Source: Sulfurospirillum oryzae
Lineage (GTDB): Bacteria > Campylobacterota > Campylobacteria > Campylobacterales > Sulfurospirillaceae
Length of the DNA stretch: 64,000 nt
Direction of reading: 5' to 3'
NCBI RefSeq assembly: GCF_025770725.1
Contig: NZ_JANZKZ010000002.1
Coordinates: forward strand, 744,001-808,000
The notes beneath the pieces were generated by a model, which searched no databases, was not told the origin of the DNA, and saw nothing but the letters and a program-made list of their open reading frames with translations. Below, piece by piece: positions 2,305 to 13,636 of the stretch. Every line of letters starts with the position of its first letter. Within the stretch, counting starts at the first letter, position 1. The position numbers and the translations under genes are program-made.

Positions 2305-4161
2305 ATGGCTTCAAAAGAACTCTACACAGCATTAGAAGAACTTTTTGCAGAAAATGAAAAATCTTATGTGACCTACGAAAACGTCATGGATCTTTTTGTT
2401 AAACCTCCAACCCCTGCAAACGTTAAAAAATTGATGACTCTTTTAGAGAAATACAAAGTCACATTGATCTCTTCTGCTGAAATTGCCAAAATGCGCAACA
2501 AAGAAGAAGCGAGAAAAAGAGAAGAAGAGCGTCAAAAACTCCAAGATGAAGCCCTAGAAGACGAGTTTGACCTTGCCAGCGAAAAAGAACTTTTAGAGTG
2601 GTCACGCAGTGATAGCCCTGTTAGAATGTACCTTCGTGAAATGGGACAAATCTCACTTTTAACCAAAGATGAAGAGATTGACATCAGTAAAAAAATTGAA
2701 TTTGGCGAAGACATCATCATTGATGCGTTTTGTTCTGTTCCTTATCTGATTGATTTTATTTTGGATTATAAAGAAGCACTCATCAACCGTGAACGTCGTG
2801 TAAAAGAGCTTTTCAAAACCTTTGAAGACGACACCGACGATGATGGGGATGAAGAAGAGTTTGACGATGAAGACGGTGAAGAAGGTGAAGAGAAAAAAAC
2901 GTTTTCCAAAAAAGACAACACAAGAACTGAAAAAGTCATCGAAAGCTTTAAGTCTTTAGAGAAAGCGAAAAAAGATTGGTTAAAAAGTCTTACCAGACCA
3001 CCTGAAGAAAATTTAGATGATGCTGAAGAGATGATGAACTACGATCTAGGACTTGCGTATAAAAAGAAACTTCTTAAAGACGCACTTATGGATTTAGGAC
3101 CTACCAGTAAGTTGATTAACGAGCTTGTAAAATCTATGGAAACCGCACTTAAAAGTGACTTTGAATTCGACAAAGAACTCAAACGTTTAGAGTACCGTTT
3201 GCCACTTTTTAACGACACACTCAGAGAAAACCATGTTAATCTTCTCAAAAGCATTGTTGATCTTAACAAAGAAGACATTACGACAATGGTTCCAGAAGCT
3301 ACGATGGTTTCAACCTATATGGAAATCAAAAAGCTTTTCCAAACCAAGGAAGCGAGTAAACAAGGTTTCGATCTTGATCCTGAAAAACTCAAAGAGGTTC
3401 TAGAACAGATCAAACGGGGTAAAAAAATTGCTGACGAGTCTAAAACCCGTATGGCAAAAAGTAACCTTCGTCTGGTTGTATCCATCGCAAAACGTTACAC
3501 CAACAGAGGCTTACCATTCTTGGATTTGATTCAAGAAGGTAACATCGGTCTTATGAAAGCGGTTGATAAATTTGAGTACAAAAAAGGCTACAAGTTTTCG
3601 ACCTACGCCACATGGTGGATTCGCCAAGCGATCTCACGTGCCATTGCCGATCAAGCACGTACCATTCGTATTCCTATCCACATGATTGAGACGATTAACC
3701 GTATCAACAAGATCATTCGTAAACACCTTCAAGAAGAAGGTAAAGAGCCTGACATCGAAACCATTGCACTAGAAGTGGGCCTGAGTGCGGACAAAGTCAA
3801 AAACGTTATTAAGATCACGAAAGAGCCTATTTCACTTGAAGCACCTATTGGTAACGAAGACGATGGTAAATTCGGCGATTTCGTTGAAGATAAAACCTCT
3901 GTTGCGCCACTCGATCACATTCTAAAATCTGACCTTAAAGATCAGATCGATGAAGTACTAGATCAGCTCAATGATCGCGAAAAAGCGGTTATTCGTATGC
4001 GTTTTGGTTTAATGCACGATGAGAGTGATAGAACACTTGAAGAGATCGGTAAAGAACTTAATGTTACGCGTGAGCGTGTTCGTCAGATCGAAAGTTCTGC
4101 GATTAAAAAACTGAAACATCCTAAAGTGGGACGTAAACTTAAAAACTACATCGAAAGTTAA
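2305..4161 (+). CDS. rpoD: Housekeeping RNA polymerase sigma factor RpoD (sigma-70)
   Basis: The 618-residue protein is the primary sigma factor that directs RNA polymerase to housekeeping promoters. An N-terminal region 1.1-like part is followed by [21 protein letters not shown] (region 1.2). There is a very acidic low-complexity insert around residues 172-200, rich in D and E. Region 2 is visible in the [18 protein letters not shown] and [16 protein letters not shown] motifs, and region 4.2 ends with [20 protein letters not shown]. The start is fixed by AAGGAGAG 8 nt upstream. A PAS-domain gene follows after 2 bp and is probably co-transcribed. Confidence 0.98.
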
Positions 4162-4163
4162 CC

Positions 4164-4850
4164 ATGAGTAGTTTTGCCGAAGCATGGATTGAACACGATT
4201 ACAATCCTTTTATTGTTTTTGATAGTACCGGTAAGATCATTTCCCTCAACCAAGAAGCGCAATACCTTCTTGGTGAGGTCAACCACAAAAAAATCTTTGA
4301 TATCGCCCAAACGTATGCAAGCATGACGTATGGTTTTAAAACAACCATCGTTGACATTTCATTTAGTTCATACAAGTTTTATGCGATTACGGTGGGCTAT
4401 ACCGATGAAACATCCATAGGTATCAAGCTTTACAAGAGCGCAACGAAAAAATTTGCCAATGTCGAAGAGTATGGTGAGAGTGTGAATATTTACGCGCTAC
4501 TTGACCTTTGCATTAGTGCATCTTCCACCAATGCAAACATCAAGTTTAAAAAAGAGTTTGACCCAACTTTCCCAGATGTTCGTCTCAAAGTTGAAGACTT
4601 TATGAAGCTCCTTACTAAAGTCTATCAGTCACATATCAACTCACCCGTCATTACCACGCGTCTAGCCCTGATTACAGGTGAATACATTCGCTTTAACAAT
4701 AAAAAATACCCTATTTTTGCCATCTCCATCAAAGGTGATAGCCGAGATAGAAACTATGAAAAAAGCATTGAAGAGATAGGTGTTAAAGGTAACTGCACCA
4801 TTCACTTTGAAAATGACGAAACCCTCATCCACGCGGCATTAGTGTCGTAA
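4164..4850 (+). CDS. PAS-domain protein with degenerate kinase-like C-terminus
   Basis: This 228-residue protein begins with a PAS-like sensor fold (about residues 8-95) containing the typical segment NPFIVFDSTGKIISLNQEA. The C-terminal half (about 100-225) resembles a histidine-kinase ATPase domain in outline: VNIYALLDLCI, DPTFPDVRLKVEDFMKLL. The N-box asparagines are replaced (LLTKVYQSH), there is no phosphoacceptor H-box and no DxGxG glycine box, so it cannot be an active kinase. It starts 2 bp after rpoD and has no membrane segment. The known facts end at PAS; a role as a partner or regulator linked to RpoD would be inference from position only. Confidence 0.7.
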   Translation: MSSFAEAWIEHDYNPFIVFDSTGKIISLNQEAQYLLGEVNHKKIFDIAQTYASMTYGFKTTIVDISFSSYKFYAITVGYTDETSIGIKLYKSATKKFANVEEYGESVNIYALLDLCISASSTNANIKFKKEFDPTFPDVRLKVEDFMKLLTKVYQSHINSPVITTRLALITGEYIRFNNKKYPIFAISIKGDSRDRNYEKSIEEIGVKGNCTIHFENDETLIHAALVS

Positions 4851-4854
4851 AAAT

Positions 4855-4889
4855 CTTTACATGTAAAGTCATTTGGCTTTACATGTAAC
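4855..4889. terminator. Bidirectional terminator made of two iterated palindromes
   Basis: Two copies of the TTTACATGTAAA family (4856-4867 and 4878-4889) are separated so that TTACATGTAAAG (4857-4868) pairs with CTTTACATGTAA (4877-4888) around the 8-nt loop TCATTTGG. The 12 bp stem lies between convergent genes (the PAS gene and the HxlR gene) and is flanked by T-rich or A-rich sequence on both sides. It would work in both directions. Confidence 0.7.
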
Positions 4890-4895
4890 TTTTAT

Positions 4896-5258
4896 TTACA
4901 AACTTAAACACGATTCTCCATCAAGCGCCTCACCTGGTTTTATATGCTCTTTTCCCCACTGATACATCAAACTTAAAATGGGTATGAGCGTTTCGCCCTC
5001 TGACGTGAGTGAGTATTCCACTTTGGGAGGTACTTGATTGTACTGTTCCCTGTGAATAATATTATTACGCTCTAACTCTTTGAGTTGTTGGCTTAATGTT
5101 TTGTGTGCAATCGGCTGTAACATCTCTTTTAAGCGATTGTAGCGAATGACTTTTGATTCCGATATTTTCCACAAAATAATCCACTTCCACTTTCCTTCCA
5201 AAATCGACATCGCATAATACATAGGGCATTTTTCGTATTTATCACTAAATTTTTCCAT
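4896..5258 (-). CDS. HxlR-family winged-helix transcriptional regulator
   Basis: A 120-residue DNA-binding protein. The signature is clear: CPMYYAMSILEGKWKWIILW, then RYNRLKEMLQPIAHKTLSQQLKELE and the wing with VPPKVEYSLTSEGETLIPIL. HxlR/YodB/QorR proteins are usually autoregulated repressors that control a divergently transcribed oxidoreductase, and the conserved N-terminal Cys (here in EKCPMY, residue 11) is redox- or electrophile-sensing in studied members. It is divergent from an iron-sulfur flavoprotein gene with a 112 bp shared promoter region containing a candidate operator. The regulator class is certain; the inducer is unknown. Confidence 0.93.
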   Translation of the reverse strand: MEKFSDKYEKCPMYYAMSILEGKWKWIILWKISESKVIRYNRLKEMLQPIAHKTLSQQLKELERNNIIHREQYNQVPPKVEYSLTSEGETLIPILSLMYQWGKEHIKPGEALDGESCLSL

Positions 5259-5283
5259 TTTTCCTCCATTACTTTCCTTTTGG

Positions 5284-5298
5284 TTAGTATATAACTAA
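5284..5298. promoter_or_regulatory. Candidate HxlR operator (inverted repeat)
   Basis: TTAGTATATAACTAA is an inverted repeat (TTAGT - 5 nt - ACTAA) in the divergent promoter region, 26 nt upstream of the HxlR-type gene start and 35 nt upstream of the flavoprotein -10 box at 5333-5338. Studied HxlR/QorR operators are short AT-rich palindromes of this kind placed between regulator and target. The link to this regulator is inferred from position. Confidence 0.5.
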
Positions 5299-5332
5299 AA
5301 AGTTCATTCTATACTTAAATTATATATTGTTC

Positions 5333-5338
5333 TATAAT
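5333..5338 (+). promoter_or_regulatory. -10 element of the flavoprotein gene
   Basis: TATAAT lies 32 nt upstream of the start codon at 5371, with the ribosome site AGAAGGA between them. It sits just downstream of the candidate inverted-repeat operator at 5284-5298, so a bound repressor could block access. Confidence 0.6.
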
Positions 5339-5370
5339 TCGCTTCAGCACATAATTAAGAAGGATTATCG

Positions 5371-6054
5371 ATGAAAATTATAGCCATTAATGGAAGTCCG
5401 CGAAAAAATGCAAACACTGCCACTTTACTGAAAAAAGCGCTGGAGGGTGCAAAACAGCATGGAGCGAAAACAGAGCTTGTTCACCTTTATGACTTTGCGT
5501 ATCAAGGATGTATTAGTTGTTTTTCTTGTAAGCTTCCTAAAGGAAAATCGTATGGAAAGTGCGCACATAAGGATGCGCTCAAACCTCTTTTAGAAAAGCT
5601 CCACGATGCCGATGCCATTCTTTTAGGCTCACCTATTTATTTTGGCAACATTACAGGTATGATGCGCTCATTTATAGAACGTTTAGCCTTTCAATACACC
5701 GTTTATGATGTACATTACTCCTCACTTTTTCCTCGAAAAATACCCATAGGTTTTATCTATACGATGAATTTAGATGAAAAAAGGATGCAAGAATGGGGTT
5801 ATGTTGAAACACTTAAAGGTCTTGAAAAGAGACTTGGAAGTATTTTTGGTTCTTCTGAAGCACTTTATGTAACTGATACCTATCAATTTAAGGACTATTC
5901 CAAATATAAAATTACCGCTTTTAGTGAACCACTCAAAGCCAAAAGGCGCAAAGAAGTCTTCCCCATAGATTGCGAAAAAGCTTACGATATGGGAGCGCGA
6001 TTTGTTACAATAGGCGCTTTTTTAGCTTCTAACAGTGAAAGTGTACCTCATTGA
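5371..6054 (+). CDS. NADPH-dependent FMN reductase / iron-sulfur flavoprotein
   Basis: The 227-residue protein has a flavodoxin-like fold: MKIIAINGSPRKNANTATLL is the FMN phosphate loop and ADAILLGSPIYFGNITG the second flavin-contact motif. Residues C47, C50 and C53 form CxxCxxC, followed by C64. This is the compact cysteine motif that binds a [4Fe-4S] cluster in Methanosarcina Isf; the fourth cysteine is further away here (x10 rather than x5). Family members transfer electrons to or detoxify oxidised substrates. It is divergent from an HxlR regulator, which probably represses it. The exact substrate cannot be told from sequence. Confidence 0.85.
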   Translation: MKIIAINGSPRKNANTATLLKKALEGAKQHGAKTELVHLYDFAYQGCISCFSCKLPKGKSYGKCAHKDALKPLLEKLHDADAILLGSPIYFGNITGMMRSFIERLAFQYTVYDVHYSSLFPRKIPIGFIYTMNLDEKRMQEWGYVETLKGLEKRLGSIFGSSEALYVTDTYQFKDYSKYKITAFSEPLKAKRRKEVFPIDCEKAYDMGARFVTIGAFLASNSESVPH

Positions 6055-6067
6055 GTGTGACCTACTT

Positions 6068-6097
6068 TTACATGCAAGCTTATTATTTTGTATGTAA
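6068..6097 (+). terminator. Hairpin from a decayed palindrome pair
   Basis: TTACATGCAA (6068-6077) pairs with TTGTATGTAA (6088-6097) around a 10-nt loop, with one G-U pair; the downstream arm is followed by TTTT. Both arms are mutated relatives of the TTTACATGTAAA family. It lies 14 nt after the flavoprotein stop and is a likely terminator. An intact copy follows at 6116-6127. Confidence 0.5.
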
Positions 6098-6162
6098 TTT
6101 TAAATGAGATATGTCTTTACATGTAAAGATTTTCAATGCACTATTAGGATTAAAATTTAAGG

Positions 6163-6189
6163 AGCGGTTACACATTACATGTAACCGCT
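6163..6189. terminator. Terminator hairpin between flavoprotein gene and acs
   Basis: AGCGGTTACA (6163-6172) pairs perfectly with TGTAACCGCT (6180-6189) around a 7-nt loop, a GC-richer 10 bp stem. The downstream arm and loop contain a TTACATGTAA palindrome (6175-6184). It lies just past the acs stop on the minus strand and between convergent genes, so it may serve both. Confidence 0.65.
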
Positions 6190-6197
6190 TTAGAAGT

Positions 6198-8144
6198 CTA
6201 GAATTCGATAAGGTTTTGGATTTTCTCAACGATACTTGGATCTTCAAGTGTTGAGATGTCTTGAGTAATAGGCTCTTTTTTCGCGATTGAGCGAAGAATT
6301 CTTCGCATGATTTTACCACTTCTGGTTTTTGGAAGACCAGGAACGAAGCGGATCGCGTCAAGTTTAGCGATATTACCGATCTCTTTAACAATGAGCTTGT
6401 TAAGCTCTTGGATCATGTAAACCTCTTCACTAATCGTATCTTGTCCTTTGATAACAATGTACGCAAAGATGCCCTCACCTTTAATCGCATCAGGACGTCC
6501 AACAACGGCAACCTCTGCAACGTTTTCATGATGCGCAAGAACAGCTTCGATCTCCGCTGTACCGATTCTATGTCCCGAAACGTTGATAACGTCATCTGTT
6601 CGTCCTGTAATGACGATATAGCCATCGTCATCGTACATTGCGCCATCGCCTGAGAAGTAAACAGGTTTACCGTCTTTTTTACAATCACCAAAATACGATT
6701 TTACAAAACGATCACTATCGCCCCAGATATTACGAATCATTGAAGGCCAAGGCTTAGTGATACACAAGAACCCTTTTTCACCTTTGGGTGTTGGATTACC
6801 ATGCTCATCAATAATCTCAGCTTTAATGCCTGGAAGTGGGAATGTAGCAGAACCCGGTTTAATCGGCGTAGCTCCTGGAAGTGGAGAGATCATGTGACCG
6901 CCTGTTTCTGTTTGCCACCATGTATCCACAATCGGACAGTTTCCACCACCGATTTGCTCATAGTACCACATCCACGCATCAGGATTGATCGGCTCGCCAA
7001 CGGTTCCAAGTACTTTTAGAGAACTTAGATCGTATTTTGAAGGAGCATCAGCACCCTCTTTGTGAAGTAAACGAATCGCTGTTGGAGCGGTATAGAACTG
7101 ATTGACACGGTGCTCTTCAATCATGTGCCACCATCTGCCTACATCTGGGAACGTTGGAACGCCCTCATACATAATGGTTGTTGCACCCATCGCAAGTGGT
7201 CCATAGACGATGTACGTATGTCCCGTAATCCAACCAACGTCTGCTGTACACCAGAAGGTGTCGTTCTCTTTAACATCAAAAACGTGCTCCATTGTGTACT
7301 GCGCCCAAAGAATGTAGCCAGCACTTCCGTGTTGAACACCTTTTGGCTTACCAGTACTTCCTGAAGTGTAAAGTAGGAACAATGGATCTTCTGAGTCCAT
7401 CCATTCAGGATCGCAGTACTGAGACTCGTTCATTATGATCTCGTTGTAAACATAGTCACGTCCTGGAACGTAGTCAATGTCTTCAAAGTTTCTTTGAACG
7501 ATAAGCACTTTCTCACAACATTCACAGCCAACACTAAGCGCCTCATCAACAACGGGTTTTAACATGTATGGTTTACCGCGTCTAAATGCACCATCGGCTG
7601 TAATAACCAATTTTGCTTCTGCATCTTGGATACGATCACGTAAAGCTTCAGCAGAGAATCCACCAAAAACAACGGAGTGAATCGCACCAATTTTTGCACA
7701 GGCAAGCATTGCAAAAGCAGCTTCTGGAATCATTGGCATATAAAGAACAACACGGTCACCTTTTTTGATGCCAAATTTATTGCGCATCAAGTTTGCTAAA
7801 CGGTTAACGCGGTAAAAAAGTTGAAGATACGTAATGATACGACGTTTGCCATCTTCGCCTTCCCAGATAATCGCCGCTTTATTTTTACGGGTTTTTAGAT
7901 GTCTTCCTAAACACTGATGCGTAACGTTTAATTTGCCACCTTCGAACCATTTGTAGAACGGAGCGTTATCTTCATTTAACACTCTGTCATAAGGCTTAAA
8001 CCACTCAATTTTCTCACGTGCTAGCTTATCCCAATAGCCTTCAAAATCCTCATCCGCTTGGATACAAAGCTCCTTGTACTCACACATGTTCTTAATTCTG
8101 GCTTCTTTGCTTAAAGCTCTACTTGGTTCAAAAAGTTGTGACAT
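6198..8144 (-). CDS. acs: Acetyl-CoA synthetase (AMP-forming)
   Basis: The 648-residue enzyme activates acetate to acetyl-CoA through acetyl-AMP. Family motifs are all present: [19 protein letters not shown] (AMP-binding P-loop), [38 protein letters not shown] and the C-terminal [15 protein letters not shown], whose lysine is the usual acetylation-control site. Length is typical (about 650). It follows actP in the same direction but after a 147 bp gap holding an actP terminator and repeat hairpins, so it may have its own promoter. It works with the ActP symporter and probably with the upstream two-component system in acetate uptake and use. Confidence 0.98.
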
Positions 8145-8291: not shown

Positions 8292-9932
8292 TTAGTGACT
8301 TGAAGCGCCCTCTGCTCCAATACCTGTTTGACTTCTGATATACTGATGGTCAAACGCCGCTCTCTCTTGCTCTGCACTTTCGCTATTATCCATTAAAGAG
8401 ATAATCCAAATGCCGATAAAGGCAACACTCATTGAGAAAAGTGCTGGGTTACCATAAGCGTAGATCGCTGTTTTATTGCCTAAAACATCTACCCAAACCG
8501 CTTTACTAAGAATGACCAACACAATCGCTGTGAAAAGTCCTAAACTACCGCCATAAACAGCACCTCTAGTTGTCAATTTTTTCCAAAACATTGAGAGGAA
8601 AAGAATTGGGAAGTTAGCACTTGCTGCAATCGCAAACGCAAGACCTACCATGAACGCAATGTTCTGCTTTTCAAACGCAATGCCTAAGATAATTGCTACG
8701 ATACCAAGTGCAATCGTAGAGTACTTAGAAACTCTCATCTCTGTCATCTCATCCACACGACCTCTTGCAAATACGTTTGCATAAAGATCATGACTTACCG
8801 CACTTGCACCTGCAAGGGTAAGACCTGAAACAACCGCTAAAATCGTTGCAAAAGCAACCGCTGAAATAAATCCTAGGAATAAGTTTCCACCAATCGCATG
8901 TGCTGTGTGAATCGCAGACATGTTACCACCACCAATGATGCCACCCTTGATCGGATCAAGATAGGTTGGATCATTTGTTAATAATACGATAGCACCAAAA
9001 CCTATGATGAAAGTTAAAATATAAAAATAACCTATAAATCCAGTTGCAACAAAGACTGACTTACGAGCTTCTTTTGCATCACTTACGGTGAAAAATCTCA
9101 TCAAGATGTGTGGAAGACCAGCCGTTCCAAACATCAAGGCAATTCCTAAGCTAATAGCCGAAATTGGGTCACTTACTAAGCCACCTGGTGCCATAATTGA
9201 AGCACTTTTTTTAGCTGCTACGGCTTGAGAGAAGAGTGTTTCAAAGCTAAAGCCCACTTTGTACATAATCATGATTGCCATGAATGATGCACCTGAGAGC
9301 AATAATACTGCCTTGATAATCTGAACCCATGTTGTTGCCAACATGCCACCAAAAGTAACATATAAAATCATCAAGATACCCACCATGATAACCGCGTACT
9401 CATAATCAAGACCAAACAAAATTTGAATCAATTGACCCGCACCAACCATTTGAGCAATCAAATAAAGTGCAACCGTAGCGAGTGACCCCAATGCCGCAAG
9501 TGTACGGATCGGTGTTTGTCTCAAACGGTATGAAGCAACGTCAGAGAACGTATACTTACCCAAGTTTCTAAGCTGTTCTGCCACCAAGAAAAGAATGATT
9601 GGCCAACCGACTAAGAAGCCGATAGAATAAATCAAACCATCAAATCCTTTAAGGTAAACCAGTCCAGAAATTCCTAGGAATGATGCCGCTGACATGTAGT
9701 CACCTGCAATGGCTAGACCATTTTGAAAACCTGTAATGCCTCCGCCAGCTGTGTAAAAATCTTTAGCTGTTTTAGTTCTTTTTGCTGCCCAGTACGTAAT
9801 ACCAAGGGTTGCAAGAACAAAGAGGACGAACATAATGATCGCTGAAACGTTTAAGTCTCGTTTGCCGCTAAATTGAGCATCTGCAGCAAAAGCAAAATTG
9901 CTTAAGGTTAATAGGAGTAAGCCCCATTTCAT
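8292..9932 (-). CDS. actP: Cation/acetate symporter ActP (SSS family)
   Basis: A 546-residue sodium:solute symporter with a cleavable-looking N-terminal signal ([20 protein letters not shown]) followed by about 13 membrane spans. Diagnostic segments include [40 protein letters not shown] (sodium/substrate region; quoted parts begin near residues 45-60) and the downstream [15 protein letters not shown] motif. It imports acetate and similar short monocarboxylates. Its start overlaps the end of the DUF485 gene by 4 bp (ATGA), the usual yjcH-actP arrangement. Assignment is secure from sequence and from acs next to it. Confidence 0.95.
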
Positions 9933-10243
9933 TTTTCACTCCTTGCTTCTTCTTTGATTTGGTTGGTTAAGTCATCAAATTCACCATTGGCTCTTTGGGT
10001 ATAAATACCTGTAAGAACAAACGCAATGACGATAACTCCCAATCCTACAGGGATACCGACGGTGGTAACACCTTCTCCAAGTTTAACTGCAAATGTTGCA
10101 GGGGAAAAAGCAATTACAAGGATGAAAGAGTAGTAAACAACTAGCATGATAATTGCTAGTTTCCATGCAAAACTACTTCTTTTTTTTACGAGTTCGGCAA
10201 ATTTTGGATTGGCCTGTACTCTGTCGTAGATGTTCTGACTCAT
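9929..10243 (-). CDS. yjcH: DUF485 inner-membrane protein (YjcH-like)
   Basis: The 104-residue protein starts [21 protein letters not shown] and has two membrane helices (about residues 26-48 and 60-82) typical of DUF485. These small proteins are nearly always encoded just before actP and are thought to assist the symporter. I place the start at 10243 rather than 10303 because AAGGAG lies 7 nt upstream of that ATG and the family begins at this point; the extra 20 residues upstream are not YjcH-like. A pair of 11-bp-spaced direct repeats lies 54-72 bp upstream. Confidence 0.9.
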
Positions 10244-10296
10244 AAATGCTCCTTCATTATTTATTTGGTAGCCTGATGACATTGTAAAGAAGTAAC

Positions 10297-10315
10297 GTAG
10301 CATTATCGTAGCATT
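10297..10315. promoter_or_regulatory. Direct repeats upstream of yjcH-actP, candidate response-regulator site
   Basis: GTAGCATT occurs at 10297-10304 and again at 10308-10315, an 11-bp period. Tandem direct repeats with 11-bp spacing are what OmpR/PhoB-family response regulators bind as head-to-tail dimers. An OmpR-family regulator gene ends 59 bp away. On the minus strand the repeats read AATGCTAC and overlap a plausible -10 (GATAAT). Confidence 0.5.
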
Positions 10316-10373
10316 TTGGATTTTGGTAAAAAGCGAAGATTTTTTTTAAATAATTTGAGTAGAAACGTAACTT

Positions 10374-11051
10374 TTAGCGGTTTTTTTCGGGAAAGTACTT
10401 ATCAATCTTATAGCCAACACCTTTTAGATTGATAATAAAATCTTCTTTAAGAAGCTTGCGAAATCGGCTTATTTCAGCCCTAATAGAGGCATTATCAATG
10501 GGTTCATCATTCCAAACATAACTGCGGAATTTTTCAAAGTCAACGACTATGCCTATGTTCTCACAAAGCAATGTAACTATTTGTAACTGTTTTTTTGTGA
10601 GCACTTGAACATTGTTGTTGTAAAAGAGCATCTGCTGCTCTTTGGAGAAGACGTATTTGGGGCTGAGAATGATATGTTGCAAGTTTTTAATCTCATACTC
10701 TTTTTTGATCTTGTCAATGCGAAGCCCTAATTCTTTAAGATGAAAAGGTTTTTTGAGGTAGTCTGACGCGCCTAACTCAAATGCTTCCGAGATGTCATCA
10801 ATGTCAACATTGGCACTAATAAAAATAGTAGGATAAGCGTGTTCAATCTCATTGAGCGCTTTAAGGAGAGCCAGCCCACTCATTTTTGGGATATTAATGT
10901 CTAAAAGCAACAGATCAAACACATCCTTTTTGATGGCTTCATACGCCTCTTCACCGTTACCAAAAGCGATGACTTTATGCCCAAGTGCTTCTAAATACTC
11001 CTCGATGGAGCTTCTAAGCATCAGTTCATCTTCAAGCAGTAAAATTTTCAT
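10374..11051 (-). CDS. OmpR-family DNA-binding response regulator
   Basis: A 225-residue regulator. The receiver domain (residues 1-118) carries the acidic pair E7/D8, phosphoacceptor D51 in LLLLDINIPKMSG, S79 in the TIFISAN switch position and K101 in YLKKPF. The C-terminal winged helix (about 130-222) is OmpR-like: LTKKQLQIVTLLCENIG and SIRAEISRFRKLL. It starts 3 bp after the histidine kinase stop, so the pair forms one operon. The acetate uptake genes lie immediately downstream in the same direction, which suggests control of acetate uptake. Confidence 0.93.
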   Translation of the reverse strand: MKILLLEDELMLRSSIEEYLEALGHKVIAFGNGEEAYEAIKKDVFDLLLLDINIPKMSGLALLKALNEIEHAYPTIFISANVDIDDISEAFELGASDYLKKPFHLKELGLRIDKIKKEYEIKNLQHIILSPKYVFSKEQQMLFYNNNVQVLTKKQLQIVTLLCENIGIVVDFEKFRSYVWNDEPIDNASIRAEISRFRKLLKEDFIINLKGVGYKIDKYFPEKNR

Positions 11052-11054
11052 GGT

Positions 11055-12527
11055 TTATCCTTTAGGAAAGCGGTAGGCAAAGAGCGTTCTGGACTCATCG
11101 GAAAGCACATCAATGCTCACATCATTGCTATCACAAATCTCTTTTACAATGTTTAATCCCAAGCCAAACCCTCCACGCGCCTCATCTTCGCGGTAATACC
11201 GACCAAAAACTTTCCAAGGCGCTTGAATCATTTCTCCGCAATTTTGCACTTCCAAAACAACACTCTCTTCTTCAGCATAAAGTCTTACATGTAAAGGTTG
11301 TTTTTCGTAGCTATACTTAATGGCATTGGAAAGATTGTTGTCACAAATGCGCTGCAATTCGATCTCATTAAAAACAATAAACAGATCAGGCGCAATGTCT
11401 GTAACGATGTGCAGTTTATTTCCTTCTGCTACGTCTTCAAAGTACTCTACTCTTTCGGTTATAAACTTTGAAAAATCGATCATCGATTTTTCATAAACGA
11501 CTCTGTCTTTTTTCACCACATACGCCAAATCTTCATAGATGTTATCAAGCACTTTGACGGCTGCTTCGATTTTGATCAAATAAGGATTTTTGTCAAATTT
11601 GAGATTGTAGAGATCAATGTTCATCAAAATAATGGAGAGTGGCGTATTGATCTCATGTATCGCATTTTTCACAAAACGGTCTTGCTTTTCAAGAAGCTCC
11701 TGCGTAAAATCGACCGAGCGTTTAAGCTCTATGGTCTTTTGCTCAACGATCCCTTCAAGATTGCTGTTAAGATCAACCAGTGCACTGTTTTTACTCTTAA
11801 TTTCCTCGATCATCACATTGGCATGCGTCACAATCTCTTGAAACTCTTGAAACTTGATCTTTTCCATATCAATAAACTCATAGCTTTGAGACGCTTTCTT
11901 AAACGAATAGACGATAAAGCGAATTTCACGCTTCATAATGTCGCTAACATAGCGATATTCAACCGTACTGACCAGATATAAAAAGAGTGTTAACATGTAA
12001 ATTTTCAGTACAAAATTGATGATTTTATCTTCATACGCTTTCTTTTTCTGTGCTAAAACATCTTCAATACTATGCGTACTCACACCACTACCCAAGAGAA
12101 GATCTAAAGGCTCATACAGTTGCGTTACAATAATATCTTTACTTGTATCTTCGTGATTGAGTACTGCGGAACGATAGATTATTTCACCCGAACTTCGCTT
12201 TAAAAAAACATAGTTTTGCGCTTCCATGTTCGCCATCAGTGCCGTGATGTCTTCTTTAAGCTTTTTGTAAATCTTTTCTTTTGGAAGGTTTTTACTTTGA
12301 GAGTATCGGTATTCTGCAATATTTTGAAGAAGACTTAGTTGTGTAGAAGCACTCTTTTGTTGCATTTGAATGTAACTCTCTTCAACGACTTTGATCTCTT
12401 TTTGAAAGTCCAAGTATTCGTTGACAATGACCAAACACGCAGAGAGGAAAGCAAAAAGACCCGCAAAAAGAATCGCCATGAAATTGATCTGGTTGATACT
12501 CTTGTTATCTTTTTTCTTTTGCAGCAA
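11055..12527 (-). CDS. Membrane sensor histidine kinase
   Basis: The 490-residue kinase has two membrane helices (about 15-36 and 172-188) enclosing a 135-residue periplasmic sensor that looks Cache-like. A coiled-coil linker follows, then the H-box FVKNAIHEINTPLSII with phosphoacceptor H291, the N-box DNNLSNAIKYS (N401) and glycine box GGFGLGLNIV. Start is a TTG at 12527: its ribosome site AAAGGA (12533-12538) is built partly from a TTTACATGTAAA palindrome at 12536-12547. Partner is the adjacent OmpR-type regulator. The ligand is unknown; acetate or related carboxylates are plausible from context. Confidence 0.9.
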   Translation of the reverse strand: MLQKKKDNKSINQINFMAILFAGLFAFLSACLVIVNEYLDFQKEIKVVEESYIQMQQKSASTQLSLLQNIAEYRYSQSKNLPKEKIYKKLKEDITALMANMEAQNYVFLKRSSGEIIYRSAVLNHEDTSKDIIVTQLYEPLDLLLGSGVSTHSIEDVLAQKKKAYEDKIINFVLKIYMLTLFLYLVSTVEYRYVSDIMKREIRFIVYSFKKASQSYEFIDMEKIKFQEFQEIVTHANVMIEEIKSKNSALVDLNSNLEGIVEQKTIELKRSVDFTQELLEKQDRFVKNAIHEINTPLSIILMNIDLYNLKFDKNPYLIKIEAAVKVLDNIYEDLAYVVKKDRVVYEKSMIDFSKFITERVEYFEDVAEGNKLHIVTDIAPDLFIVFNEIELQRICDNNLSNAIKYSYEKQPLHVRLYAEEESVVLEVQNCGEMIQAPWKVFGRYYREDEARGGFGLGLNIVKEICDSNDVSIDVLSDESRTLFAYRFPKG

Positions 12528-12605
12528 AAAAATCCTTTACATGTAAAGCTTTGGTCGCTATTTTACCAACATTATCCCCAAATAAGAGAAACAAGCCATT
12601 TTTGG

Positions 12606-12611
12606 TATAAT
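12606..12611 (+). promoter_or_regulatory. Extended -10 promoter element for aguA
   Basis: TGGTATAAT places TATAAT at 12606-12611, 32 nt before the aguA start. The same TTTGGTATAATT string occurs before uvrB at 34930-34935. There is no strong -35, as is normal in this phylum. The divergent sensor kinase gene starts 78 bp away. Confidence 0.65.
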
Positions 12612-12643
12612 TTAACTCAAATACGAGCTACATGGAGTTACAC

Positions 12644-13636
12644 ATGAAAATCCGAATACCAGCTGAATGGGAAGAGCAAGAGGCACTTATCGTCGTTTTC
12701 CCTCCCAAAAAGAGTGACTGGGCACACTCCATCGAGGAAATTCACCAAACGTATCTTACTTTTATTACAACGATTGCACGCTTTCAAAAATGCCTTGTGG
12801 TCTGCGAAGACAAAAAAGCACTGGCGAACTTGTTACCAACGATGCAAAACATCGAACTCATCGAAATGGCAACGAACGATACATGGATTCGCGATTTTGG
12901 TGGCATCAATATCTATAAAAATCATAAACGACGCACCTACGACTTTATCTTCAACGCATGGGGCAATAAATTTGAAGCAAATCTCGATAACAGCATCACC
13001 AAACAGCTTTTTGAAGAGGGCTACCTAGAAGGTAAACTCAAAAGTTTTGACTTTGTACTAGAGGGCGGAAGCATCGATAGTAACGGCAAAGGCGTAATGC
13101 TTTCAACCGCTTATTGTCTGTATGAACAAAACCGCAATTCACATCTTTCCAAAAAACAGATTAGAAAAACGCTCATCGAACTCTTTGGGCTTAAAGAGCT
13201 TATCGTGCTTGAACATGGCGCACTTATGGGTGATGATACCGACTCGCACATCGACACGCTAGCTCGCTTTATCAACAAAAAAACCATCGCTTATGTGAAG
13301 TGTTACGATAAAAATGATGAGCACTATGATGAGTTAAAAAAGATGGAGAAAGAGCTTCGAAAAACAGAGTTTGACCTCCTCCCTTTGCCTCTGCCCTCAG
13401 CTAAATATTTCAACAATCACCGTATCCCCGCAACCTACATGAACTTTGTGCTTATCAATAATGCGGTATTGGTTCCAACCTACAGTGACCCTTACGATAA
13501 AGAAGTTTTAGCGATGTTTGAGCGATGTTTTCCCGAACGAGAAGTCGTTGGTATAGAGTCTTCAGTACTCATTCGCGAACACGGAAGCCTTCATTGTGCT
13601 TCAATGAATATCTATAAAGAAAGAGACGATTCCTAA
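12644..13636 (+). CDS. aguA: Agmatine deiminase (AIH/PAD family)
   Basis: The 330-residue protein belongs to the Porphyromonas-type peptidylarginine deiminase/agmatine iminohydrolase family. It hydrolyses agmatine to N-carbamoylputrescine and ammonia. Conserved pieces include NDTWIRDFGGINI, VLEGGSIDSNGKG, HIDTLARF and the C-terminal nucleophile region GSLHCASMN. I chose the ATG at 12644 because GGAG lies 6 nt before it; an in-frame ATG at 12632 overlaps that ribosome site. The stop overlaps the next gene's ATG (TAATG). The partner enzyme aguB is encoded at 17.2 kb. Confidence 0.88.
   Translation: MKIRIPAEWEEQEALIVVFPPKKSDWAHSIEEIHQTYLTFITTIARFQKCLVVCEDKKALANLLPTMQNIELIEMATNDTWIRDFGGINIYKNHKRRTYDFIFNAWGNKFEANLDNSITKQLFEEGYLEGKLKSFDFVLEGGSIDSNGKGVMLSTAYCLYEQNRNSHLSKKQIRKTLIELFGLKELIVLEHGALMGDDTDSHIDTLARFINKKTIAYVKCYDKNDEHYDELKKMEKELRKTEFDLLPLPLPSAKYFNNHRIPATYMNFVLINNAVLVPTYSDPYDKEVLAMFERCFPEREVVGIESSVLIREHGSLHCASMNIYKERDDS

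Follow-up and report, generated by a model that had tools for sequence, protein, structure and literature searches.

Two-component control of acetate genes is described in Vibrio and Pseudomonas, where CrbS/CrbR (MxtR/ErdR) controls acs and actP (PMC5715377). CrbR is reported as a LuxR-family regulator that needs an inverted repeat, the ACTU motif, and CrbS as an SLC5-STAC hybrid kinase (PMC5715377). In Campylobacter jejuni, BumSR responds to short-chain fatty acids, with BumS described as a phosphatase that senses butyrate, isobutyrate and isovalerate (PMC11796366). The term "direct repeat" has 0 occurrences in the main text of that paper. For Arcobacter butzleri, an influence of ECF sigma factors on ackA and pta is reported (PMC6682613), so acetate genes there have other known control. 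A term search of the same text, a review of respiratory regulation in the phylum, gave no occurrence of "actP". In titles and abstract openings of the open-licence literature we found, among the matches listed, no published two-component system for acetate uptake in Campylobacterota.

In Sulfurospirillum, the PceS/PceP system (TCS2) includes an OmpR-family regulator of the tetrachloroethene regulon (PMC7755780). The reported binding sites of PceP are CTATA repeats separated by 6 nt, i.e. with an 11-bp period, which overlap the -35 region and give the consensus CTATW-N17-CTATW. These sites are reported to go with induction (PMC7755780).

Here we analyse a 64-kb stretch of Sulfurospirillum oryzae DNA (the window), in which a direct repeat stands between an OmpR-family regulator gene and genes for acetate uptake.

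The acetate-uptake locus

The locus lies on the minus strand. The genes for the kinase and the OmpR-family regulator come first, then a gap of 130 bp that contains the repeat, and then yjcH, actP and acs. Its features are as follows.

11055..12527, minus strand: sensor histidine kinase (Pfam; TTG start)
10374..11051, minus strand: OmpR-family response regulator, proposed to bind the operator (Pfam Response_reg and Trans_reg_C; alignment)
10297..10315, minus strand: predicted operator, direct repeat AATGCTAC-GAT-AATGCTAC, half-sites GCTAC, period 11 bp
10281..10286, minus strand: predicted -10 box TACAAT, 26 nt from the first base of the operator half-site
10249..10254, minus strand: AAGGAG ribosome-binding site of yjcH (from sequence; well conserved in the family alignment)
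9929..10243, minus strand: yjcH (DUF485), small partner of the acetate permease (Pfam PF04341)
8292..9932, minus strand: actP, sodium:solute symporter, acetate permease by homology (Pfam PF00474; conserved gene order)
6198..8144, minus strand: acs, acetyl-CoA synthetase (Pfam PF16177/PF00501/PF13193)

An earlier note on this DNA had placed direct repeats with an 11-bp period just upstream of yjcH-actP, adjoining a co-directional pair of OmpR-family regulator and kinase. Gene coordinates and Pfam agree with this arrangement, and the repeats are where they were said to be, with GCTAC half-sites at 10308-10312 and 10297-10301 of the minus strand, which is the sense strand for yjcH. The repeat reads GTAGCATTATC-GTAGCATTTTG on the plus strand (10297-10318) and AATGCTACGATAATGCTACG on the minus strand. 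The DUF485 protein is paired with an SSF permease, as in YjcH-ActP (by Pfam, the acetate substrate being assigned by homology). The regulator consists of a REC and a winged-helix Trans_reg_C domain, and its D8, D51 and K101 are invariant in 14 sequences, the window included. A simple scan of 9900-12700 gave no terminator between the regulator gene and yjcH, and no second repeat was seen before acs in the 147-bp gap that separates it from actP.

The exact form AATGCTAC-N3-AATGCTAC has a single match in the window and a single match in the 2.63-Mb genome, and GCTAY-N6-GCTAY occurs once across the window with both strands scanned. When three mismatches were allowed, the window held 3 matches (0.82 expected) and the genome 39, compared with 29 for the reversed pattern. 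Since this relaxed form is hardly enriched, it is the exact form and its position that carry the evidence. The only other match of the genome to the strict site, with one mismatch, lies before an SBF-family permease gene, Acr3-like by eye (L111 3190-3207; G000:C2:17689).

Conservation and enrichment of the site

A regulator match was found in 80/80 relatives, a count that includes paralogues. Orthologues with at least 67% identity are present in 39 of the 44 genomes of the host's family and absent from G029, G030, G038, G042 and G043, several of the regulator-less genomes being incomplete MAGs. We fetched 30 family loci. L028 stops short of yjcH, and in each of the other 29 GCTAY-N6-GCTAY is present in the regulator-yjcH gap, much of which has otherwise diverged. 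When at most one mismatch was allowed, the strict pattern TGCTAYGNNAATGCTAYG was present in 41/44 family genomes, and the three genomes without it also lack the regulator. This corresponds to 39/39 genomes with the regulator and 2/5 without it. In G038 and G042, where the regulator is absent, a one-mismatch copy lies before a DUF4212-symporter operon (L036, L037). One genus of the family has kinase, regulator and site followed by acs (L031, L032, L034, L038).

Enrichment was scored from the side of the regulator and from the side of YjcH. For the first, we used the best 80 of 396 loci matched with the regulator alignment and scored 300 bp upstream and 60 bp inside each operon start. Acetate-operon starts (n=56) were those with a first gene labelled yjcH, OprD, acs or DUF4212, and the controls were 360 such regions before unlabelled genes. 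Among these best 80 of 396 loci, GCTAY-N6-GCTAY stood before 54/56 acetate-operon starts and 1/360 control promoters, and shuffled regions gave an expectation of 0.03 per 56. The reverse-strand pattern was found before 0/56 acetate-operon starts. When spacings from 0 to 24 were compared, 6 alone was enriched and every other spacing gave 0-2 of 56. Of the two starts without it, one (L122) is an ORF fragment within acs, and the other (L145) has a copy with one mismatch. The site follows the regulator within 500 bp in 48/80 named loci (best 80 of 396). Among the 32 regulators without a site at this distance downstream, there is one whose locus ends within 150 bp, and most others precede other genes.

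Starting from YjcH, we obtained 66 matches in 59/159 genomes, from which 61 operons were scored, one was too short and four were not alignable. All 28 yjcH operons that adjoin the regulator have the exact site (28/28). The genomes are related, and the counts are therefore not independent draws. For the yjcH operons that do not adjoin it (f11 and f14 left out), the site was exact in 11/28, carried one mismatch in 7/28 and was absent in 10/28. These ten site-less operons belong to f9 (six), f23 (two), f2 and f19 (one each). The weak DUF485 relatives of f11 and f14 lack the site in 5/5 cases. Exact sites in the YjcH-found loci span 11 family-level groups; shuffles of these loci gave 0.06% exact matches and 1.3% with one mismatch.

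Range across the order

The strict pattern without mismatch is present in 42/298 genomes of the order, where reversed controls gave no match among the matches listed. The pattern is thus not universal in the order, where the site occurs in no fewer than 11 family-level groups. Outside the host's family we counted 22 exact strict sites, and by reading of the loci 14/22 lie before acetate genes, namely yjcH-actP, OprD porin-yjcH-actP, DUF4212-SSF, pta-ackA or DUF294-DnaQ-acs. The downstream proteins were named by Pfam in ten cases and otherwise by eye or by match to those ten. A looser site in L106 follows kinase and regulator and precedes SatP (Gpr1_Fun34_YaaH) and acs. The module precedes acetate genes that are not homologous (yjcH-actP, OprD-yjcH-actP, acs, DUF4212-SSF, SatP-acs), and since the operator stays while the transporter family changes, the system is tied to acetate and not to one protein.

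The other 8/22 exact strict sites outside the family do not precede acetate genes. Five of them, all in f9, are near a SoxC-like molybdo-enzyme (L063, L065), a NiFe hydrogenase (L066, L077) or a TRAP binding protein (L075); this hints that the f9 sites may act more broadly, in the choice between lithotrophy and acetate. The remaining three stand at the start of a long unnamed ORF (L079), without a clear target (L076) and inside a gene (L073). As a separate observation, a DUF294 protein (CBS, cNMP-binding), mostly together with a DnaQ-like exonuclease, accompanies the acetate genes in L078, L095, L096, L146 and L158.

Promoter anatomy

With only the repeat as anchor, we aligned the 61 plus-strand sites found in the 80 named loci. 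TAnnnT was found at +26 in 55/61 sites and TAnnAT at the same offset in 50/61, compared with 19 and 4 sites, respectively, at the runner-up offset of +21. Of the six sites without the -10 box, two read CATAAT and four are inside ORFs. Site matches within coding regions (these four, L091 and L092) were set aside as chance.

Counted from a start site predicted near 10273, the half-sites would extend from about -39 to -24 and so cover the -35 region. PhoB and OmpR operators are direct repeats about 11 bp apart that take the place of the -35 element, and PhoB replaces the -35 contacts. The repeat has the same layout, with one orientation, a period of about 11 bp and a position at the -35 region. 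This anatomy suits an activator that would replace the -35 contacts in a PhoB-like manner. Sigma-70 promoters of Campylobacterota often lack a -35 box, so its absence alone is no sign of an activator.

The kinase's own promoter was also scanned, and GCTAY-N6-GCTAY was found in 0/68 regions upstream of the kinase in the 80 named loci. There is therefore no sign that the kinase-regulator operon is autoregulated through this site.

The kinase and its sensor part

The kinase has a HATPase_c domain above the Pfam cut-off and a HisKA domain just below its own (25.8 vs 26.9 bits). Its H291 and N401 are invariant over 31 relatives, and two membrane helices are predicted. By Pfam, no Cache domain was found in the window kinase, and there was no Cache match in the 404-residue kinase of S. 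cavolei. The S. arcachonense kinase gives a weaker sCache_2 match (E 1.1e-7), and some more distant kinases have the full domain (L147, E 1.5e-29; L161, 9.6e-33; L180, 8.6e-29).

We modelled the periplasmic part of the window kinase (pLDDT 87.7) and compared it with the PDB. The best match was the periplasmic domain of TlpB (E 0.0049), none reached 0.001 or lower, and 5g4y, a Cache domain solved for carboxylic acid recognition, ranked fifth (E 0.013). Judged from the model, the small periplasmic domain appears to resemble Cache-type domains weakly. The model of the full kinase matched kinases in general. Across the acetate kinases, the sensor ranges from a full sCache_2 to none recognisable, with regulator and operator retained (window 11055-12527; L119, L130, L147, L161, L180).

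Paralogous regulators and a possible wider promoter grammar

The combined pattern GCTAY-N6-GCTAY-N10-TAnnnT has 10 matches in the genome and 1 for the reversed pattern; summed over 24 genomes of the genus, the numbers are 205 vs 20. One of the ten is the actP site. Seven are of the type GCTATTTT(C/T)(A/G)TGCTAY, and among the nine further promoters, six are GCTATTTTCATGCTAY (L274-L280, L111). The first base of the spacer is T in 7 of the ten promoters, A in one and G in two, and the six-base spacer GATAAT is found at the actP site only.

Neighbours of the seven promoters include an aldehyde:ferredoxin oxidoreductase (AOR), a ferredoxin, a binding protein behind fdhD, a hydrogenase-4-like operon (named by eye; Pfam Fer4, Proton_antipo_M) and an OprD porin beside a formate-dehydrogenase-like gene (by eye). 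The eighth promoter lies before a molybdo-aldehyde oxidoreductase, beside a paralogous kinase-regulator pair, and the ninth before the SBF-family permease. It is possible that these nine promoters form a formate/aldehyde/tungsten regulon. Chemoreceptors are also among the genes behind them. In L276 (3466, minus strand, and 3629-6183), the pair beside the oxidoreductase has a regulator 49% identical to that of the window; the oxidoreductase promoter reads GCTATATTCATGCTAT with the -10 box at the same offset, and L102 has a third copy of the half-site.

The acetate site thus looks like part of a wider promoter grammar common to paralogous regulators. More tentatively, and with somewhat less than even confidence, we suggest that the acetate switch is one branch of a Campylobacterota grammar, GCTAY-N6-GCTAY-N10-TAnnnT, that would be read by a clade of paralogous regulators. 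The bases after GCTAY and the 6-nt spacer would separate the regulons, acetate (G-N-TAAT in most of the host's family) from formate/aldehyde/tungsten (mostly TTTCAT). In the genus, little or nothing of the Cache-like sensor would be left in the kinase, with regulator, operator and targets retained, and the signal may therefore now come from elsewhere, for example from the transporter.

In the regulator tree, the label for acetate genes plus site (60/100 rows) needs 20 changes, compared with a shuffled mean of 31.5. With these 20 changes, the tree does not give proof of a single acetate clade, because many Sulfurimonas and Arcobacter rows have other genes behind the regulator. A MAG titled Helicobacter pylori PMSS1 (L181) has a regulator that groups with Arcobacteraceae rows in this tree and is probably a mislabelled bin.

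Proposed mechanism and alternative explanations

The repeat is very likely the binding site of the adjacent regulator, and the kinase-regulator pair would switch on acetate uptake. The kinase (11055-12527) would phosphorylate the regulator (10374-11051), and a regulator dimer would span the -35 region in a head-to-tail arrangement, with one of the two GCTAC half-sites on each turn of the DNA. Once bound, the regulator could recruit RNA polymerase with sigma-70 to the -10 box TACAAT and so turn on yjcH-actP, possibly with read-through into acs. The signal may report acetate, another short carboxylate or a shortage of carbon. The comparison of loci establishes the element, its orientation, its strict period, its fixed distance to the -10 box, its conservation and its co-inheritance with the regulator and the acetate genes. 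It supports the proposal of the earlier note, namely that the adjacent two-component system acts on acetate uptake by way of an OmpR-type operator. The support comes from the order of regulator, site and acetate genes, the strict 11-bp period and orientation, the fixed -10 distance, the 28/28 regulator-adjacent operons and the 39/39 vs 2/5 family genomes.

We infer binding by the regulator and activation rather than repression. A regulator that binds but represses, blocking polymerase at the -35 region until a signal releases it, is unlikely. It would fit a site that overlaps the -35 region and abuts the spacer, but the single fixed -10 distance in 55/61 sites is what contact with polymerase would demand, and repression would be compatible with a more variable distance. 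For PceP, sites in a similar position are moreover reported to go with induction (PMC7755780). Somewhat less probable still is that the main reader of the site is not the adjacent regulator but a paralogue from its clade, such as the one beside the molybdo-aldehyde oxidoreductase. The half-sites seem to be common to paralogous regulators, so adjacency is no proof of which one binds, and one of the 10 promoters of this grammar in the genome does stand beside a paralogous pair. However, the GATAAT spacer sets the actP site apart from the other promoters, and the adjacent regulator and the acetate site travel together, both in the yjcH operons and in the family genomes.

We give hardly any credence to the repeat being part of a longer yjcH frame, with its ATG at 10303, or a chance repeat. 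A mechanical ORF does start at 10303 and would overlap the repeat, but this ORF is very probably spurious, because a good ribosome-binding site, AAGGAG, lies before the ATG at 10243 and the repeat is also found elsewhere in front of other genes (OprD, acs and DUF4212 genes). For the latter reason we reject a coding role of the repeat in the longer frame. We reject chance on the exact-match counts, the strict spacing and the control-promoter tests, and the YjcH-locus counts.

Comparison with known systems

If binding and activation by the adjacent regulator hold true, Campylobacterota would have an acetate-uptake switch that differs from CrbSR in regulator type, kinase type and operator, and this switch would be a convergent solution for the same genes. 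Several free-living Campylobacterota of the genera Sulfurospirillum, Sulfurimonas, Sulfuricurvum and Arcobacter mix autotrophy with acetate use, and the site would be a ready operator for reading their acetate regulons. With their paralogous sites, the same genomes would also lend themselves to testing how crosstalk is avoided among related regulators that have a half-site in common. The acetate switch would be new, while an OmpR-family two-component system with a tandem operator at -35 is already known in kind.

With the operators of PhoB and OmpR, the site shares direct repeats about 11 bp apart, and it differs from them in half-site and regulon. BumSR, compared here by description and not by sequence, also belongs to Campylobacterota and responds to short-chain fatty acids (PMC11796366). 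PceP is alike in its OmpR family, its repeat period and the similar place of its sites over -35 as reported, whereas the half-site is GCTAY instead of CTATW, in two copies and not three, with other targets and another signal (PMC7755780). In the G019 genome, three CTATA copies with 6-nt gaps lie before the dehalogenase gene of the pce locus. The regulator there, taken as PceP by its place beside the second dehalogenase gene, is 26% identical to the window regulator, which by sequence is a distant relative and not a PceP orthologue.

CrbS/CrbR resembles the system of the window as a two-component system with a promoter-proximal repeat at acs/actP genes (PMC5715377). The earlier note had set CrbSR apart by its regulator type, correctly so, given a LuxR-family CrbR with an inverted repeat (PMC5715377); the window regulator has Trans_reg_C, which places it in the OmpR family, and a direct repeat. 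By Pfam, no SLC5 symporter or STAC domain was found in the window kinase. The system is not CrbSR.
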